A DNA stretch of 35,366 nt, taken from IMG/VR virus record IMGVR_UViG_3300047169_000101, positions 1-35,366 of that record. One strand, 5' to 3'. Below, in pieces: positions 1 through 11,214 of the stretch; the first letter of the stretch is position 1, and the number at the start of each line of letters is the position of its first letter. The notes beneath the pieces were generated by a model. It ran no database searches and was not told the DNA's origin. It saw nothing but the letters and a program-made list of their open reading frames with translations. The DNA comes from a virus. The translations under genes were made by a program, and so were the position numbers.

Positions 1-591
1 TTACGTTGGTCCGTGGGGCCGGATCGGGGTTGAGGGGCTTTTCTCGCAATTTGGGCCGCTGGAAGCCGCTTGCGCACGTAGTTTAGCAATTCTACCGGCG
101 TCGGCAGCGCCGAATAAATCCGCCTGCACCCCGGCTGCAGCCGCTTTGCGGCGGGGCTTCCGGCGGCCTGCGGAGACGGCGTCGTGGACCTGGGCGAGCG
201 TGGGCACAGTGGAGTCAGCACCGACCCGGGCGCGGTCGACCTGGCTCATGACGAGCTGCACGCGATTCCTGATCCCCTTGCCCTCGGCGTAATACTCTTC
301 GCCGTGATGGCGCAGGTGGCTCTCCACGCAGGACCAAAGGTAGGCGCAAGGGAAGTCGCCTACGTCGCGGCGGCCCTTGGCGAGGATGGTGTCGAGGATC
401 GCGCGCAGGATGGCCTCGTAGCGCGCCGCAGGCAGCTCCACCCCGCGCTCGTGCAGCCACTTGGCGGGCAACGTCAGAGCCGCCTTCACGCGCTCCTGCT
501 GGGTGAACCACGACCGGGCCGGAAGCCGGGCGTAAAGCGTCTTGCGCACCTGCCTCATCAGGTCCTCCAACACGGTGGCGGGCGTCTTCAC
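1..591 (-). CDS. Hypothetical protein, last gene of the early operon in this window
   Basis: This complete 196-aa reading frame starts at ATG 591 and ends with TAA at the first base of the window. I do not recognise the family. The N-terminal 110 residues look helical and globular, with an aromatic/cysteine patch (DFPCAYLWSCVESHL) near residues 78-92. The last 50 residues are Ala/Arg/Pro-rich and probably disordered. The start overlaps the stop of the DUF2786 gene by 4 nt, so it belongs to the leftward early operon and is probably translated by coupling. Its place at the far end of the transposition operon fits an accessory or semi-essential early function. No catalytic motif is visible. Confidence 0.75.
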   Translation of the reverse strand: MKTPATVLEDLMRQVRKTLYARLPARSWFTQQERVKAALTLPAKWLHERGVELPAARYEAILRAILDTILAKGRRDVGDFPCAYLWSCVESHLRHHGEEYYAEGKGIRNRVQLVMSQVDRARVGADSTVPTLAQVHDAVSAGRRKPRRKAAAAGVQADLFGAADAGRIAKLRAQAASSGPNCEKSPSTPIRPHGPT

Positions 592-1337
592 TTGAGCGCC
601 AGACTTTGTTCCCCGGACCGGAGCGCCGGGTTAATCTTCGTCTTCTTGCCCTCGACAAAGCCACTCATCAAAGCACTGTGGTTCTTCCGGTGCTTGCGGT
701 CGGGGATCGAGACCGTCTCACCGATGACGTCGTGCAAGGCCTCCTCACGCTCTAGCTGCTGACCAGCCAGCACGATCGCGAACTTCTGGTCCTCCATAAA
801 AAGGACCTGCCTTTGCTGGTGAAGCTGTGATCCCACGCCGTAGAAAAAGCCCGCGATGAAATTGGCGTTCTTGGTTCCAGTCACCTTGCGCCCGCTCGCC
901 CGCTCGCTCGTCTGCCAACCTTTGAGGCAAAGGCGGCACTGCCGACACAGGAACTCGAATACGTACTCGGCCACCAAGACGTCAGCTTCCTTGCCCACAA
1001 AAACCACAGCCTGGCGCGCGCGACTGAGACACGGTTCCACGTGGAAATACGAGCGAAGAAGCCCGAGCGCGAGCTGCCTCTCGCGAGAAAGTCGGATCCC
1101 GATGGGAAACCAGCGATGAATGATCTCCGCAACCTCCTCGTCCAGCTCCAGGCTGGCCAGATCGAGGTTGTGCCGGTCCGCCATGTCCATCGCCCGGCGC
1201 ATCGCCAGCGCCGCCTCGTGGGGATTGGCCGACTGGGACAAGCGCAGCAACTTCTTGATTTTCTCCAAGTGCTCGCGCGGCAGCTCCTCGGCCGATTTCC
1301 TCGGAGGAGCGTTAAAGTCGAACTCGGACTGGTTCAC
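588..1337 (-). CDS. DUF2786-domain protein
   Basis: The protein has 249 aa from a GTG start at 1337, chosen because it makes a GTGA overlap with the upstream stop. Residues about 22-65 read HLEKIKKLLRLSQSANPHEA followed by a helical 'AMDMADRHNLDL' segment. That is the DUF2786 signature as I recall it (K-LL-L-S/A-N-HEA, then A-x-L-M-x-K-x-L). The remainder, with a V-x-x-V-F-V-G-K strand and a CRQCRLCLKGW cysteine cluster, resembles the long C-terminal half usual in phage-borne DUF2786 proteins. The biochemical function of the family is unknown to me. It is common in temperate phages near early DNA-metabolism genes, which matches its place here. Confidence 0.8.
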   Translation of the reverse strand: MNQSEFDFNAPPRKSAEELPREHLEKIKKLLRLSQSANPHEAALAMRRAMDMADRHNLDLASLELDEEVAEIIHRWFPIGIRLSRERQLALGLLRSYFHVEPCLSRARQAVVFVGKEADVLVAEYVFEFLCRQCRLCLKGWQTSERASGRKVTGTKNANFIAGFFYGVGSQLHQQRQVLFMEDQKFAIVLAGQQLEREEALHDVIGETVSIPDRKHRKNHSALMSGFVEGKKTKINPALRSGEQSLALK

Positions 1338-1645
1338 AGTAAAATCCCCTGGCGCTCGTCGCAGCGGCGCGACTGCATCCGCGAGATGCGGCGGAACTCG
1401 CGAATGCCGTGGTTGCGGCGACTGTGCTTGAATTGAAGCCACTCCTTGGTCGTCGCCTTCAGGTAATGGCGATAGCCCTTGCGCGTGTGGCTGATCGCGA
1501 ACTCGCTCACCAAGCCGGGCACATCGCCCAAGGTGCGCAGCTCGCGCTGCCGCTGGATGCCCAAGGCCGCGCAGAGATCGGCGGCGCTGACCCAGCCAGG
1601 CTGGGCCAGCAACCACTGCTCGATCTGCACGGCCTCCGGGTTCAT
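1334..1645 (-). CDS. Winged-helix DNA-binding-like protein
   Basis: The protein has 103 aa. ATG 1645 was preferred over the upstream in-frame start because it gives the same ATGA overlap seen through the operon. Residues 8-30 (IEQWLLAQPGWVSAADLCAA) followed by LGI and RELRTLG look like helix 1, helix 2 and the recognition helix of a winged HTH. The segment around FAISHTRKGYRHYL would be the wing. The C-terminal 35 residues are strongly basic. It is probably a small DNA-binding accessory or regulatory protein. The function is inferred from the predicted fold only. Confidence 0.65.
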   Translation of the reverse strand: MNPEAVQIEQWLLAQPGWVSAADLCAALGIQRQRELRTLGDVPGLVSEFAISHTRKGYRHYLKATTKEWLQFKHSRRNHGIREFRRISRMQSRRCDERQGILL

Positions 1646-1863
1646 GGCACCTTCGGGAACTCGTTCCACTGGCGGCCGTCCAGCTCACGAAAACCGCTTT
1701 TACTGCGGATCGTGAAGTAGTGGTCGTTGTCGGCCACATCCTCATTCTGAATGCCCTCGAAGGTGATCTGGTCGCGCTGGAGGTGGCGCCAGCCCAGGCG
1801 GCGCGTCACGTCCTTAGTGCGCGCGCGCATCTGGGGTTTGGTGAGGGAGAAGGCCATGTTCAT
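1642..1863 (-). CDS. Small protein with ASCH-type phage motif at the N-terminus
   Basis: The protein has 73 aa from ATG 1863; GTG 1866 and ATG 1857 are alternatives with equally weak ribosome sites. Residues 5-22, LTKPQMRARTKDVTRRLG, closely match the opening of a phage family I know by its L-T-x-P-Q-x-R-x-R-x-K-x-V-T-R-R-x-G-W motif (ASCH/PUA-like). After the GW the usual continuation, a 'PGD' turn and a long beta domain, is replaced by only about 48 residues. It may be a shortened or diverged member. It sits between the Ala/Val-rich protein gene (4 nt or more away) and a winged-helix gene (4-nt overlap). Confidence 0.65.
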   Translation of the reverse strand: MNMAFSLTKPQMRARTKDVTRRLGWRHLQRDQITFEGIQNEDVADNDHYFTIRSKSGFRELDGRQWNEFPKVP

Positions 1864-1869
1864 CACCGG

Positions 1870-2634
<765 letters not shown>

Positions 2635-5107: not shown

Positions 5108-5259
5108 CAGCAGTCCCTCCCCCCTGCGAGAGTCACGCAAACGAGCGCGCCGATGAAACAGCCCAAGCCCCAATGCGGATCGTCCAGCGCGCTGTAGAGA
5201 ACCGTGCCCACGATCGTGAGCACGAGGGCGGCGACCGTGAGTGCGCGATTGAGCTTCAT
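5107..5259 (-). CDS. 50-residue two-span membrane protein
   Basis: ATG 5259 overlaps the stop of the ATPase gene by 4 nt, and the gene ends one base into the next start. The protein has two hydrophobic stretches, residues 6-22 (ALTVAALVLTIVGTVLY) and 32-45 (LGCFIGALVCVTLA), separated by a short loop (SALDDPHWG). It is small enough to be overlooked by length cut-offs, but position, overlap and composition all support it. Small holin-like or membrane-modifying proteins are possible roles. The function is unknown. Confidence 0.65.
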   Translation of the reverse strand: MKLNRALTVAALVLTIVGTVLYSALDDPHWGLGCFIGALVCVTLAGGRDC

Positions 5260-6464
5260 TCCCAGCCTCCCTTGTCGTCGTTCGCCTGATTGGCGATCAT
5301 GTGGTGCGCCAGGAGGAAGTGGGTCCAGTTCAGGTCGGCCTTGGCCTTTTTCGCGATCTTGCGGGCATAGCGCAGCCGCTCGGTGATGGCCTTGAGGCGC
5401 ACCGTCGTGGCCAGCTGACGCAGGACCTCGTAGGGCGCGTCCTTGACCTCCTCGTCGTGCTCGGTCTTATCGACCACCGTCAGCACGAGCTTCTTATCCG
5501 GAACCTCCAGTCCCCAGTGCTTCAGGATCGCCGTCAGGTCCGCCACCGTCGGCGCGCTCATCAAGTTCAATCGGTGGGTGCCGCGATTGAAGAGCTGCTC
5601 GAGCTCGGCGTGCCGGGCCCCGCGGATTTGGTCCATCATCAGCGAAGTGCCGCACAGCACCATGCCGCACTGCGTCTCGTCGTAGATCTCGCGGATCACC
5701 TCGAGCGCCGCGAAGAAGCTGGCCTTGCGGTAGGTGTACGCGAGCTGGTGGACCTCGTCCAAAAAGAGGAGCATGTCGGAGGTGACCGCCTTCTTGATGT
5801 AGCCCGTCAGGTTCGCGGTGTTGCCCTTGTCCGAAACGCCCACGCTGGTGGCGATCGCGCGCACCAGGCCGCCAAGGCCGCTGGCCGACGGCACGCGGCA
5901 GTAGACGGAGCGGCCGTGATTGTTTTGCGCGACGTAGTTCCGTCCCGCCCACGTCTTGCCGCAATGGCTGTGGCCCCAGACGAACGCTGGCGTCTGCGAC
6001 TCGCGCGCCAGGTCGCAGATGGTGAAGATGCGCTTCGAGGTCGGCGTCTCGACGAACTCGGTCTTGCCGCCGCCGTAGCGCTCCCGCTCGAGCTTGAGGA
6101 AATCGCGGATGCCCTTAATGAGCGGCTTCGGCACGTCGAGCAGCGTGTTGCCGTCGGGCGAGCGGTATTTCCCCTGGAAGATCTTCCAGATCGTGTTCTC
6201 GTTGTAGTCGACCCGTCGCGAGAATTCCTTCCGGTGCACCGGATGCATGGGATCGATGCACCAGAGGAATGCCGCCACCAGAGCCTCTTTGCCCTCGGGG
6301 GAGCAGTGGGCGATGTTCGCGCGCAACTGGTGCAGCGAGAAGTTCCAGGAGGCGCGCACGTTGTCGCCGGTGTTGGCCTCCGGCACGACGGCCGTGTCCG
6401 CCGGCGGATCGATGACTTCCAGGTGGAGCGCGGGTTTTTCTTCGAGGAGGGTGGGGCGGATCAT
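5256..6464 (-). CDS. B: MuB-like AAA+ ATPase, DNA transposition target selector
   Basis: The protein has 402 aa from ATG 6464, overlapping the transposase stop by 4 nt. Residues 164-171 (GHSHCGKT) are a Walker A motif. LLFLDEVHQL around D236-E237 is Walker B, and MVLCGTS at 268-274 fits sensor 1. The N-terminal 130 residues contain an HTH-like segment (SRRVDYNENTIWKIFQGKY, 82-100), as MuB has an N-terminal DNA-binding appendage; the C-terminal helices could contact the transposase. Mu B has 312 residues, so this one is about 90 longer, mostly at the N-terminus. In Mu-type phages the ATPase coats target DNA, activates the transposase and gives target immunity. Order A then B is conserved. Confidence 0.92.
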   Translation of the reverse strand: MIRPTLLEEKPALHLEVIDPPADTAVVPEANTGDNVRASWNFSLHQLRANIAHCSPEGKEALVAAFLWCIDPMHPVHRKEFSRRVDYNENTIWKIFQGKYRSPDGNTLLDVPKPLIKGIRDFLKLERERYGGGKTEFVETPTSKRIFTICDLARESQTPAFVWGHSHCGKTWAGRNYVAQNNHGRSVYCRVPSASGLGGLVRAIATSVGVSDKGNTANLTGYIKKAVTSDMLLFLDEVHQLAYTYRKASFFAALEVIREIYDETQCGMVLCGTSLMMDQIRGARHAELEQLFNRGTHRLNLMSAPTVADLTAILKHWGLEVPDKKLVLTVVDKTEHDEEVKDAPYEVLRQLATTVRLKAITERLRYARKIAKKAKADLNWTHFLLAHHMIANQANDDKGGWE

Positions 6465-8506
6465 AGGAGGTTGGAGGGGTCGAGTGGGTTGAAACCGTCG
6501 TGGGGAAAGCTCTGCACCGGCGCTGCATCGTCCGTGCAATCCTCGATCTGCGGCGCGGCCTCATGCCGGGCGAACCGGGCCTCGGCCTCGGTGGCATGAC
6601 CGGAGGCGACCACGTCGTTGTTGTGTTTGAGACGGCTGGTCTCCTCGCGCGCCATGTCCGCATGCCGCCTCTTCAGCGGCGCGGCGATGTCGCGCAGGCG
6701 CTGCTGCTCGAAGGCCAGCGCCTCCTTGCTCTGCTCCTGGTCGAGGCGGCTCGATTTCTCCGCGCGCGGCGCCGTGCCGAGGAACGCACCCTTCGCGCTG
6801 TAGATCCAGAGGAGCTGGGGCTGGAACGGATTGACGACCACATCGTACTTGTCGCCGGTCAATTCCTCGTGCCGCCCGTCGGGCGTGCAGACGCGCGAGT
6901 GATAGCGCAACCGCTCCGGCGAAATCTCCTGGTCGTCAAACTCGAAGTAGCCGGCCTTCGCCTTCCGCTCGCAGGCGAGATCGATGTACAGGATCTCCGC
7001 GATCATGGCCGTCGATGCCCGGCACACCCCGCCGCGCCGCCTCGCGAAGACCTCCGCGGGGCTCAGCTTCCGCGGGCGGTGCAGCGCATGGTCCTGCTTG
7101 ATTGCGTCGGCCAGGTAGGCGCGCGTGGCATCGGGCAGCTCAAGGAACTGCTCCTGCGTGAGCCATTCCTCGCTCCCGCGATGGAAGCGGTATTGATCGG
7201 TGAGGAAGCCGAGCTCGTACCAGCCCTCAAGTTGGTGGTTGCGACGCTCATTGATCAGCTTGATCGTCTCGCTCAGCGTCGGCAGGAACTGCGTCCAATA
7301 CTCCAGCAGCGGAAACTTGAGCTGCTGCGCCGCCCAGGGCGAAAGCTGCTTGGCGATCAGCATCAACTGGTCGGCATCGCGCAGCAGCCCGGCGAGTTGC
7401 TCCGGCCGGCGCTCGACGTCCGGGCCGGTTTGCCCGGGCAGCGCGCCCAGGCAATTATGCAAAAGGTTGTGCCACGATTCGAGCGGTGCCTTGTGTCGCG
7501 GGTTGCCGCCGCCATCGCCGAGGAACATGCCCTCGACCACCTGCTTCTTGCCGGTCCAGCCGCCGAGGTCGACCTTGATCAGCGCATCGCCATGAATGGC
7601 CTTGGTCCGGTCGTGCAGGATTCGCGCGACATCCTCGCGGATCGTCGCCGTCGCGCGCTCCACCGGGTAGGTCGTCCCAAGGGGCGAGTAGCCGAACTCG
7701 TAGAGCTGGTGCGCCAGCAGGAAGCGCATGTTCGCCTCCTTCAATTTGTCGGTGACGAACTTGCCCTGCTTGGCGTCCCACCGCTTCAGCTGCGGATGGG
7801 TGCCGTAGACGAAGTAGTTGCCCGAGAACACGTCGATCATCCCGAGCTGCGACACGCGGCACGCCTGGCTCTTCGTGCCGACGTAGACGAAATTGTCGTG
7901 GTCGACGTCGTCCGGCATGATGTGCGACAGGTGATGCAAATCGCGCCGCGTGGTAAAGTGCGTCACGCCATGCCGGGCATTGGCCCGAGCGCTGCCGACA
8001 CGCATCGCGGCCTTTTCCCAGGAGCTGCTCTTGCACGCCCGCTCGAGGTTTTTGAGAGACCAGCCGCGCGGGTGCGCGTGGTGCGGCGAGGCCTTCGGCT
8101 GCTGCGCGTAGCCGGGGAGCGGCTTGCCCGCGCGCCAGTCGCGCATCAGGTCCTCGTGCGCCTTGGCCATGGAGCGGCCGTGCCGCTCGAACCGCCGCTT
8201 GACCTCCTCCTTGAACGCGGCGGGCAGCGCGTTGTCCTCGTGCTCGATCTTGCGCTCGTCGATCAGCGCACGCCATCCCTCGCGGCGAAAGTGGGGCACG
8301 AGACCCCGGATCGCATGCCGCGTCATCGGGAAGCCAGCAGCCGTCATCTGCCGTGCGGCGTTTTCCTGGGCCGCCCGCTTCGTTCCGTGGCCCGCATTCA
8401 GCACGGCGGTCATCAGCGGCGCGAGCAGGTCGACCTCGCGGCGCACCTCGGCGGACAGCGCGGCGACCGTTAGCGTGTCCGCCAAAGCGAGAGGCATCCC
8501 ACTCAT
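6461..8506 (-). CDS. A: MuA-like DDE transposase
   Basis: The protein has 681 aa (Mu A has 663) from ATG 8506, which gives an ATGA overlap with the zinc-ribbon gene. Residues about 40-85 (AAQENAARQMTAAGFPMTR then HAIRGLVPHFRREGW) look like the N-terminal HTH end-binding domains. The RNase H-like core starts near 'MPDDVDHDNFVYV' (197-209), where an Asp of the 199-204 cluster is the likely first acid, with IDVFSG at 224-229 on the next strand. VDLGGW (D313) and PLESWHNLL (E343) give the other two acids. VVVNPFQPQLLWIYSAKGAF (556-575) fits the beta-barrel after the core. The helical tail 585-681 would bind the ATPase. It catalyses strand transfer at phage ends during integration and replication. 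The exact first Asp needs alignment. Confidence 0.93.
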   Translation of the reverse strand: MSGMPLALADTLTVAALSAEVRREVDLLAPLMTAVLNAGHGTKRAAQENAARQMTAAGFPMTRHAIRGLVPHFRREGWRALIDERKIEHEDNALPAAFKEEVKRRFERHGRSMAKAHEDLMRDWRAGKPLPGYAQQPKASPHHAHPRGWSLKNLERACKSSSWEKAAMRVGSARANARHGVTHFTTRRDLHHLSHIMPDDVDHDNFVYVGTKSQACRVSQLGMIDVFSGNYFVYGTHPQLKRWDAKQGKFVTDKLKEANMRFLLAHQLYEFGYSPLGTTYPVERATATIREDVARILHDRTKAIHGDALIKVDLGGWTGKKQVVEGMFLGDGGGNPRHKAPLESWHNLLHNCLGALPGQTGPDVERRPEQLAGLLRDADQLMLIAKQLSPWAAQQLKFPLLEYWTQFLPTLSETIKLINERRNHQLEGWYELGFLTDQYRFHRGSEEWLTQEQFLELPDATRAYLADAIKQDHALHRPRKLSPAEVFARRRGGVCRASTAMIAEILYIDLACERKAKAGYFEFDDQEISPERLRYHSRVCTPDGRHEELTGDKYDVVVNPFQPQLLWIYSAKGAFLGTAPRAEKSSRLDQEQSKEALAFEQQRLRDIAAPLKRRHADMAREETSRLKHNNDVVASGHATEAEARFARHEAAPQIEDCTDDAAPVQSFPHDGFNPLDPSNLL

Positions 8507-9711: not shown

Positions 9712-9716
9712 ATTGA

Positions 9717-9920
9717 TCATTTCCGCCCTCCCTCCGGTGGTTGTTCCTCGCGCCACTGGGCGATGAGCTCCTTCGCCAGTTGGAACTCCACATCGAGGAG
9801 ATGGTGGTTGCCGTCGTGGTCGGGGAAAACCCGGAGCGCGAAGCTGATTCCGTCCGCCTCCTTCTCCGTGCAGGTGAAGTAGGGCCCTTCCTCGGCGTTG
9901 ATGATCATGGCGCGGCTCAT
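9717..9920 (-). CDS. Small acidic early protein
   Basis: The protein has 67 aa from ATG 9920, placed only 2 nt after the preceding stop; a longer in-frame version would overlap the winged-helix gene completely. The sequence alternates strands and short loops (GPYFTCTEKEADGISFALRV, then FPDHDGNHHLLDVEFQLAK). It resembles a small alpha/beta fold with one C-terminal helix (ELIAQWREEQ). The family was not recognised. Its location directly after two regulators suggests an early regulatory or accessory role. Confidence 0.65.
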   Translation of the reverse strand: MSRAMIINAEEGPYFTCTEKEADGISFALRVFPDHDGNHHLLDVEFQLAKELIAQWREEQPPEGGRK

Positions 9921-9922
9921 CG

Positions 9923-10162
9923 TTAGCGCTTCCTCTTCTTCAGCCAAGCGACGAGCCCGGCGCGGGTGATGACCATCGACGACTTCGAAGCGCGCGGGTG
10001 CCGCGCATCGACCATGGGGCCGAACTCGCCGGCGGAGGCCAGCGCCTCGACGTGCTTCCGGCTGTGGCGGATGATCGTGGCGACTTCCCACACCCGGAAC
10101 TGCTCCCGGCCCGCGGGCAGGTAGAAGTCGAAGTCGAGCTCGGGTTGCGCTTGGGTTCCCAT
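9923..10162 (-). CDS. Winged-helix/excisionase-like DNA-binding protein
   Basis: The protein has 79 aa from ATG 10162. Residues 22-50 (FRVWEVATIIRHSRKHVEAL and ASAGEF) match a MerR/excisionase-type first and second helix. MVDARHPRASKSSMVITRAG would be the wing, followed by a last helix (LVAWLKKRKR). Proteins of this size and layout (Xis, AlpA, helix_turn_helix_17) bend DNA or act as small regulators. It follows the RHH gene by 9 nt and is probably the second component of the switch, perhaps playing the role Ner plays in Mu. The fold is well supported; the role is inferred. Confidence 0.75.
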   Translation of the reverse strand: MGTQAQPELDFDFYLPAGREQFRVWEVATIIRHSRKHVEALASAGEFGPMVDARHPRASKSSMVITRAGLVAWLKKRKR

Positions 10163-10171
10163 GGCGTGAGG

Positions 10172-10336
10172 TTAAATGAGGACAGAAAGCTCTTTGCGGA
10201 GAGCGCGGCGCATCAGCTGGGAGAACGTGATGTCTTCGCTCTTGGCCTTCTCTTTCGCAGCGGCCCGAAGCTTTTTGGGTAGCCGCACGGCGGCTAACTC
10301 AGTCGGACTCGGCGGCAAAATGGGTTTCTTGCTCAT
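10172..10336 (-). CDS. Ribbon-helix-helix repressor-like protein, first early gene
   Basis: The protein has 54 aa from ATG 10336 to TAA 10172, below usual length limits. The sequence shows the CopG/Arc pattern: strand ELAAVRLP, helix KKLRAAAKEKAKSED, then ITFSQLMRRALRKEL. Such proteins dimerise and insert a two-stranded ribbon into the major groove of a palindromic operator. A perfect 11-bp inverted repeat lies 5 bp upstream of its start codon, over the predicted -10 box of its own promoter, so autorepression is likely. No Shine-Dalgarno is present and the expected transcript starts about 3 nt before the ATG. Confidence 0.8.
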   Translation of the reverse strand: MSKKPILPPSPTELAAVRLPKKLRAAAKEKAKSEDITFSQLMRRALRKELSVLI

Positions 10337-10341
10337 ATCAC

Positions 10342-10366
10342 GGGCGTTATACCGCGTATAACGCCC
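10342..10366. promoter_or_regulatory. Perfect 25-bp operator (11-bp arms, 3-nt spacer)
   Basis: GGGCGTTATAC at 10342-10352 and GTATAACGCCC at 10356-10366 are exact reverse complements around CGC. The element covers the -10 box and most of the spacer of the leftward promoter. It lies between two divergent RHH genes, and the size and symmetry fit binding of an RHH tetramer. The half-site TTATAC recurs further right at 10392-10397, with a variant TAATAC at 10402-10407. Confidence 0.85.
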
Positions 10367-10373
10367 CGGTCAA
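10346..10373 (-). promoter_or_regulatory. Leftward early promoter, sigma70-type
   Basis: Read on the minus strand, TTGACC (10373-10368, five of six consensus bases) is followed after 16 nt by TATAAC (10351-10346, five of six). Transcription would start near 10339, about 3 nt before the ATG of the RHH gene at 10336. The perfect inverted repeat sits on the -10 box and spacer, so a bound repressor would block polymerase directly. This promoter would drive the whole transposition operon. Confidence 0.75.
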
Positions 10374-10379
10374 AACAAT

Positions 10380-10407
10380 TTGTAATTATTTTTATACGGA
10401 GTAATAC
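10380..10407 (+). promoter_or_regulatory. Candidate rightward promoter
   Basis: TTGTAA (10380-10385) and TAATAC (10402-10407) are separated by 16 nt in the only AT-rich stretch of the region. The match to sigma70 boxes is moderate (four and three of six). The expected start, about 10414, coincides with the GTG of the rightward RHH gene at 10415. The -10 box is one of two TTATAC-like half-sites spaced 10 bp apart, so it may be under control of the same regulator as the leftward promoter. Confidence 0.45.
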
Positions 10408-10414
10408 GAAAGTT

Positions 10415-10744
10415 GTGCCCAGCCACTCTCGAAAAGCGGATCAGGACGTCGATGCTTTTTCAGCGCCAAGGTCCCTGCTTACTGCCGCCAAGAGGGAAGC
10501 AGCGAAGCGGGGTATGACCAAATCTGGTTTTTATCGATACTGCCTGGCGCGCGAATGCGGCTTCAGCCAAGCCGAGGCTCTTGAGTTTTCGGTGCATCGC
10601 GCCGTAGTTAACTTTTCTTCCAAGACACAATCACAGTTTCCCCCGCACGATGGACTTTCTGCCAGGCTCTCGGCCATGGCAGAACGACGGAAGGACGCCA
10701 ACATCTTAAACGAACAGCCCCAGGTCTACGAAGGAGAGAAATGA
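10415..10744 (+). CDS. Second ribbon-helix-helix regulator, divergent from the first
   Basis: The protein has 109 aa from GTG 10415. Residues 13-55 read as an RHH unit: strand VDAFSAPRS, helix LLTAAKREAAKRGM, then TKSGFYRYCLARECGFS. The C-terminal half (SVHRAVVNFSSKTQSQFPPH and a final helix) is not recognised and may serve oligomerisation or partner binding. The gene is the first of the rightward transcription unit and overlaps the next gene by 4 nt. Together with the leftward RHH gene and the shared operator region it looks like a two-repressor switch. Which protein maintains lysogeny cannot be told from sequence. Confidence 0.7.
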   Translation: MPSHSRKADQDVDAFSAPRSLLTAAKREAAKRGMTKSGFYRYCLARECGFSQAEALEFSVHRAVVNFSSKTQSQFPPHDGLSARLSAMAERRKDANILNEQPQVYEGEK

Positions 10745-11214
10745 CTTACCTGATCCGAGTGAACGGCGAAGAGCAGGGGCCCTATAGCTTCGACGACCTT
10801 GAAATGTACGAGCGGATGGGCGAGATCGGCGCCAGCACCGAGGTCCGTGCCCAGGACGATTCGGCTTGGAGCGCATGGGCCGCCGCAAAGCAGCTCGAGC
10901 TCAAGAAGCGCGAGCGCATCCGGTGGGACAATCAGTTTGCACTTCCCGCCCGCATCGACACCACGGCCGCCTCTCGGTCGGACAAATCTCGCGGGCTTTT
11001 CATCATTCTCGCGCTCCTCTTTGGCACGCTCGGCCTGCACAATTTCTATGCCGGGCGGTATGCAGTCGGCTTTGCGCAATTCTTCCTCACGATCACCCTA
11101 GCGCCCGTCGGCCTGATCATCCATCTTCCTCTGCTCATTCTCGTTACCGCCGTCTGGGCGATTATGGATGCGCTGATTCAAGACGCCGACGGAACCGGCG
11201 CGCGCATGGCCTGA
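10741..11214 (+). CDS. GYF_2-TM2 domain membrane protein (cargo gene)
   Basis: The protein has 157 aa from ATG 10741, overlapping the RHH gene by 4 nt. Residues 1-50 form a GYF_2 (DUF4339) domain with YLIRVNGEEQGPYSFDDLEM and a W-containing end (AWSAWAAAKQL). Residues about 80-135 are a TM2 domain: a basic KSRG, then GLFIILALLFGTLGLHNFYA with the typical G-x-H-x-F-Y, and a second membrane helix. GYF_2-TM2 fusions are frequent in Verrucomicrobia and Planctomycetes membrane proteins as I recall. It is probably a cargo (moron) gene acquired from such a host. The function in the cell is unknown. Confidence 0.85.
   Translation: MTYLIRVNGEEQGPYSFDDLEMYERMGEIGASTEVRAQDDSAWSAWAAAKQLELKKRERIRWDNQFALPARIDTTAASRSDKSRGLFIILALLFGTLGLHNFYAGRYAVGFAQFFLTITLAPVGLIIHLPLLILVTAVWAIMDALIQDADGTGARMA

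Follow-up and report, generated by a model that had tools for sequence, protein, structure and literature searches.

The regulatory region described here lies in a window of 35,366 bases, the whole of the IMG/VR virus record IMGVR_UViG_3300047169_000101. Two small genes are oriented in opposite directions and separated by 78 bp (10337-10414): a leftward ORF of 54 codons with an ATG start (10172-10336, minus strand) and a rightward ORF of 109 codons with a GTG start (10415-10744, plus strand). Both products appear to be ribbon-helix-helix (RHH) proteins, and the short stretch between their genes contains predicted promoters overlapped by predicted operators. The features of the region and of its surroundings are as follows:

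10172-10336, minus strand: gene of the 54-aa probable RHH protein, with which the leftward early (transposition) operon begins; regulator in the Arc/Ner position
10415-10744, plus strand: gene of the 109-aa probable RHH protein, divergent from the first; its product, in the c/Mnt position, is proposed to repress in lysogeny
9923-10162, minus strand: 79-aa HTH_17-like protein (match below cut-off), encoded second in the leftward operon and with a homologue in the related phage L004
6461-8611, minus strand, putative start: Mu-type transposase (A-like) of the leftward operon; phrog_310
5256-6539, minus strand, putative start: MuB-like AAA+ transposition protein of the leftward operon; AAA_22, TniB, phrog_296
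10741-11214, plus strand: membrane protein with GYF_2 and TM2; homologue in L004
10346-10373, minus strand: predicted leftward early promoter PL, with TTGACC (10373-10368), a 16-bp spacer and TATAAC (10351-10346)
10342-10366, no strand: predicted operator 1, GGGCGTTATAC-cgc-GTATAACGCCC, a perfect palindrome with 11-bp arms
10391-10407, no strand: predicted operator 2, TTTATAC-gga-GTAATAC, a pair of half-sites with one mismatch each and a 10-bp spacing
10402-10407, plus strand: presumed -10 box of the rightward promoter PR, TAATAC, 7 nt before the GTG and with a poor -35

The genes that have family support point away from the 78 bp, leftward on the side before 10336 and rightward on the side after 10415, so that the region can be seen as the hinge of the genome. 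The right arm carries the terminase, portal and head-protease genes. The 109-aa gene and the GYF_2 + TM2 gene share an ATGA, in which the stop of the former and the start of the latter overlap; the 109-aa gene is followed by no conspicuous terminator, and the membrane protein is possibly expressed in lysogeny. A repressor of the S24 or XRE type is absent among the scanned proteins of the 35,366-bp record. At the far end of the leftward arm, a gene at 588-1745 (minus strand) encodes a 385-aa protein with DUF2786/DUF7168 domains (phrog_421). Positions 1 and 35366 of the record both fall exactly at stop codons, which gives it the look of a provirus that was trimmed at gene boundaries.

The best Pfam match of the 54-aa protein was CopG_antitoxin (E = 0.0004), followed by RHH_1 (E = 0.004), both under the curated cut-off of Pfam, and the search of PHROG returned an Arc-like repressor (PHROG 6506, E = 0.0014). 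RHH_1 was matched, again below the cut-off, by five of the six members of the 54-aa family, in which a TFSQL-x-RRA block is invariant. The AlphaFold model is of moderate quality (pLDDT 72) and contains two helices, at residues 21-34 and 36-53. From these matches, we consider the 54-aa protein to be most likely of the RHH type.

For the 109-aa protein, Pfam and PDB sequence searches with its family gave no RHH match, and the protein itself had no Pfam match at all. In the model, helices 19-32 and 36-47 have a pLDDT above 90, a third helix (52-60) is predicted with high confidence, and a low-confidence tail begins at about residue 65; the RHH core would comprise approximately residues 11-51. Foldseek alone gave no significant match for this model. 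A second structural comparison placed CopG at the top (Z 4.2, rmsd 2.0 Å over 37 residues) of a list of 14 entries dominated by RHH chains, KacA, TacA2, CdbA, MazE6 and single-chain Arc among them. The core was thereby matched to the fold of CopG (2cpg and 1ea4) and of single-chain Arc (1u9p), with Z values that are low, as expected for a domain of 40 residues. In addition, the profiles of the 109-aa and 54-aa families aligned without gaps over 46 columns (hhalign probability 86.5, E = 4.6e-6). Fold comparison and profile match together indicate that the 109-aa protein, too, is most likely an RHH protein. Structure prediction covered monomers, and in the monomer models of both proteins the two helices are present and the RHH strand is unformed. 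In the presumed DNA-facing strand, two residues before the Pro that ends it, the 54-aa family has R or K and the 109-aa family S or T. A tblastn search of 50,697 phage records found no sequence match for either protein.

In the 78-bp region, predicted operator 1 contains the half-sites GTTATAC (10346-10352) and GTATAAC (10356-10362), 10 bp apart, and covers the spacer and the -10 box of PL. The half-sites of predicted operator 2, a weaker pair located to the right, are 45 bp from those of operator 1 and cover the presumed -10 box of PR. The half-site type, the 7-bp GTATAAC/GTTATAC, is the same at both. In dinucleotide shuffles, the palindrome with 11-bp arms at 10342-10366 had a P of about 0.001, and the four half-sites in the 78 bp compare with 0.8 expected (P 0.003, shuffles); at the threshold used, these two are the only half-site pairs with a 10-bp spacing in the 35-kb record. 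PL is missed by the automatic promoter scan because the scan demands a final T in the -10 box, and that of PL ends in C. The start codon of the 54-aa gene is 9 nt past the -10 box of PL, and the transcripts from PL and PR would be leaderless or nearly so, judging from the distances between -10 boxes and start codons.

The original prediction had proposed two divergent RHH genes sharing one operator region. The two ORFs do flank the 78 bp, predicted operator-like sites lie over both likely promoters, and the RHH assignment is supported for the 54-aa protein by the RHH_1, CopG and Arc-like matches and for the 109-aa protein by fold and profile. Structure prediction, suggested as a check on both proteins, was favorable for the CopG-like 109-aa protein and less so for the 54-aa protein, whose moderate model had no structural match in Foldseek.

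Searches with either protein led to five phages (L002, L003, L004, L005 and L011) in which both genes are present and divergent, and in all five a MuB-like gene is located downstream of the 54-aa homologue on the same strand. The transposases are much less similar, with 27-37% in L003 and L004, and transposase-based searches yielded no relatives beyond those already found. In L002 to L005 the half-sites have the 10-bp spacing, with 44-46 bp between the two groups, and L011 keeps the gene pair with a single half-site at each promoter. Across seven regions, half-sites spaced by less than 20 bp were always 10 bp apart, 11 times. PL is conserved as a consensus match in L002, L004, L005 and L021 (a phage of a second lineage, described below), where, as in the record studied, the -35 and -10 boxes are 16 bp apart and an operator half-site lies within the -10. 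The rightward gene of the relatives is preceded, 6-10 nt before its start codon, by TATAAA or a similar sequence. Most start codons in the relatives are about 7-10 nt past the presumed -10 box, the exceptions being the leftward gene of L005 (18 nt) and L003 (up to 13 nt). Since the half-sites coincide with -10 boxes, they could be conserved in part as promoter elements, which leaves the partner half-sites at 10 bp unexplained. We conclude that the conserved regulatory feature is real.

In the position coupled to the 109-aa gene, the relatives carry membrane or lipoprotein-like genes (L002, 7210-7605; L003, 6773-7606; L004, 7094-7546). These are not all of one family, as if the position were occupied by an exchangeable membrane protein expressed in lysogeny. 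Two further candidates were dropped: the match in L007 was a chance one inside a 628-aa ORF, and that in L006 was an unrelated RHH-like match without the pair.

Two records have a 109-aa-type gene in other company. In L009 its neighbor encodes a 69-aa protein (1997-2206, minus strand) that is not of the RHH type and possibly of the HTH type; the paired half-sites are absent, and a one-mismatch half-site remains in the -10 box. In L018, a contig of a Verrucomicrobiota MAG, the 109-aa-type gene (9713-9988, plus strand) stands alone, with no partner and no operator motif. This lone homologue points to the host phylum. In 388 genomes of Verrucomicrobiota no second 109-aa homologue was found, and the 54-aa profile gave weak generic RHH matches only; one match of the operator pattern in the survey of these genomes had no RHH gene beside it and was rejected.

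From L009, the predicted operator may follow the 54-aa protein. It could then be that this protein alone binds the operators, as a self-standing early autoregulator, and that the 109-aa protein acts elsewhere or reads another sequence at PR. The missing paired half-sites next to the non-RHH neighbor in L009, the lone gene without motif in L018 and the different residues presumed to face the DNA (R/K versus S/T) all lean toward this explanation. However, L009 and L018 are single cases, the -10 box of L009 retains its one-mismatch half-site, the two families align gaplessly, and the phages with both genes have half-sites of fixed spacing at both promoters, so that we regard binding by the 54-aa protein alone as rather improbable and prefer a switch in which both proteins use the common half-sites.

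The leftward promoter and half-site pair were also used as a DNA pattern (TTGACM N3-4 CGTWWWAC NNN GTWWWAC) in a scan of viral contigs by DNA only. The scan recovered the phages already known plus L021 and L038, which represent one lineage, unrelated in sequence, with a divergent pair, the 10-bp spacing and the overall geometry of our phage (pair regions at 1710-2306 in L021 and 1494-2090 in L038). A 60-aa RHH gene (RHH_1, E = 0.0023) begins 12 nt past the site, and a divergent gene encodes a 110-aa RHH-like protein, weak by profile (RHH_1, E = 0.21). The half-sites read GTTAAAC/GTTTAAC, and a third (GTTAAAA) is found 46 bp away at the rightward start. On the expected side, the L021 record has genes for a transposase and a MuB-like protein. 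As aligned by eye, the middle position of the presumed DNA-facing strand is G in both L021 proteins and A in those of our phage; this change parallels that of the half-sites between the two lineages and is suggestive only. The pattern gave 18 new stretches in all, most of which were in or beside unrelated genes or copies of one repeated site, and were set down to chance. An operator-like site was also seen in L040 (6858-6884), just before a 57-aa RHH-like ORF, on a virus contig with a weak MuB match.

Arc and Mnt of phage P22, the closest counterpart known for the pair described here, are RHH proteins, and Mu-type phages are the model for switches with helix-turn-helix repressors. In the P22 immI record, the divergent genes mnt (minus strand) and arc (plus strand) are separated by 90 bp, which contain one operator each for Arc and Mnt as well as divergent promoters. 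The likeness extends from the two divergent small RHH repressors and two operators in a shared promoter region (predicted from the sequence in our case) to the gene sizes, arc having 53 codons and mnt 83, near the 54 and 109 aa found here. In P22, however, the operators of Arc and Mnt are annotated separately, and here one half-site type occurs at both; ant is located behind arc, and here the 54-aa gene is followed by the HTH_17-like gene and then by the transposase/MuB operon, such that the pair heads a transposition operon, with start codons 7-9 nt past the -10 boxes. Moreover, immI serves as a secondary immunity region, which lies inside the late operon and governs the antirepressor ant (PMC8022706). 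P22 immI nonetheless indicates that a region so arranged can function as a switch. CopG and Arc likewise have short operator subsites in pairs, at a distance of about one helical turn, and our system differs from them in its own GTWWWAC half-site with 10-bp spacing and in the additional helix (52-60) and low-confidence tail of the 109-aa protein.

An HTH domain is present in the repressors of Mu, D108 and B3, and an HTH combined with an S24 peptidase in others (PMC8541194). As in the c/Ner regions of Mu and B3, a repressor gene is here divergent from an early operon with a small first regulator and transposition genes (Fc02: PMC9936078), and an operon of Mu-type transposase A and B facing the repressor gene is present by gene order and strand. 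Mu c and Ner are helix-turn-helix proteins, whereas both proteins here are best read as RHH. The original prediction knew of no described example of a two-RHH lysis-lysogeny switch in a Mu-like phage. To take this as meaning that nothing of the kind has been described is too strong, as the two RHH repressor genes of P22 immI form a divergent switch whose two operators lie in 90 bp; what stood of the proposal for a Mu-like phage is that the layout, the predicted sites and the leftward operon with transposase and MuB-like genes (the latter in the relatives as well) fit a lysis-lysogeny switch. The open-access papers searched described no Mu-type phage with an RHH pair as its main switch, which is no proof of absence. 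The layout is known already from P22 immI; the apparent novelty would be the two-RHH pair as a primary Mu-type switch and the single half-site type at both operators.

The roles of the two proteins might be reversed: the 54-aa protein would then be the one that represses in lysogeny, and the 109-aa protein, whose gene opens the rightward arm, would be a lytic or late regulator. The 109-aa gene does face the late genes with no clear terminator in between, and for this reason it may also belong to the early genes of the rightward arm. We find the reversal of roles quite unlikely, because the 54-aa gene heads the operon leading to the transposase, like ner in Mu-type phages, and because Fc02 has its repressor gene on the forward strand, opposite to a reverse operon that starts with ner, and its exclusion genes on the repressor transcript (PMC9936078), in parallel to the membrane-protein gene coupled to the 109-aa gene. 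That one or both genes encode RHH antitoxins of type II toxin-antitoxin modules rather than phage regulators, as the CopG_antitoxin match of the 54-aa protein (best in Pfam, below cut-off) and the antitoxins in the structure list of the 109-aa model might suggest, is very improbable and was set aside for want of an adjacent toxin, the neighbors being the HTH_17-like and GYF/TM2 proteins, and the pairing with transposition operons being conserved.

We therefore return to the switch with common half-sites. From the sequence data, it is probable that a transposable (Mu-type) phage with a link to Verrucomicrobiota uses the region as its early/lysogeny switch, formed by two small repressors of the same RHH fold, the 54-aa protein in the Ner position and the 109-aa protein in the c position; most likely, it would be the primary lysis-lysogeny switch of this phage group. 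Two RHH dimers would bind side by side at each pair of half-sites. In the lysogen, the 109-aa protein on operator 1 would cover the -10 box and spacer of PL and keep the transposition operon silent, and at operator 2 it would limit its own transcription. Upon escape of PL, the 54-aa protein, product of the first early gene and in the position of Ner, Cro and Arc, would accumulate, shut PR and later damp PL, such that the phage is committed to replicative transposition. Because the 109-aa protein lacks a LexA/S24 self-cleavage domain, derepression would be expected to occur by dilution, proteolysis or an anti-repressor, and its low-confidence tail is a candidate proteolysis signal.

A wider proposal, which we make tentatively and hold to be somewhat doubtful, is that this type of switch is general in transposable phages with Verrucomicrobiota-like hosts. 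Two paralogous RHH repressors would there compete for common half-sites placed in the -10 boxes of two leaderless promoters, and on each side the operator, the promoter and the start codon would be merged within a few tens of bases. Immunity specificity would then shift through changes in the two proteins that are matched by changes in all half-sites, as may have occurred between the lineages of our phage and L021. If true, a primary two-RHH switch would mean that the decision logic of Mu-type phages has been rebuilt from the Arc/Mnt fold, and the conserved half-sites would provide a very small, directly testable operator system. As the half-site is kept among phages with transposases 27-37% alike, yet changed in a second lineage of like geometry, the group would lend itself well to studies of how immunity specificity is retained or switched.
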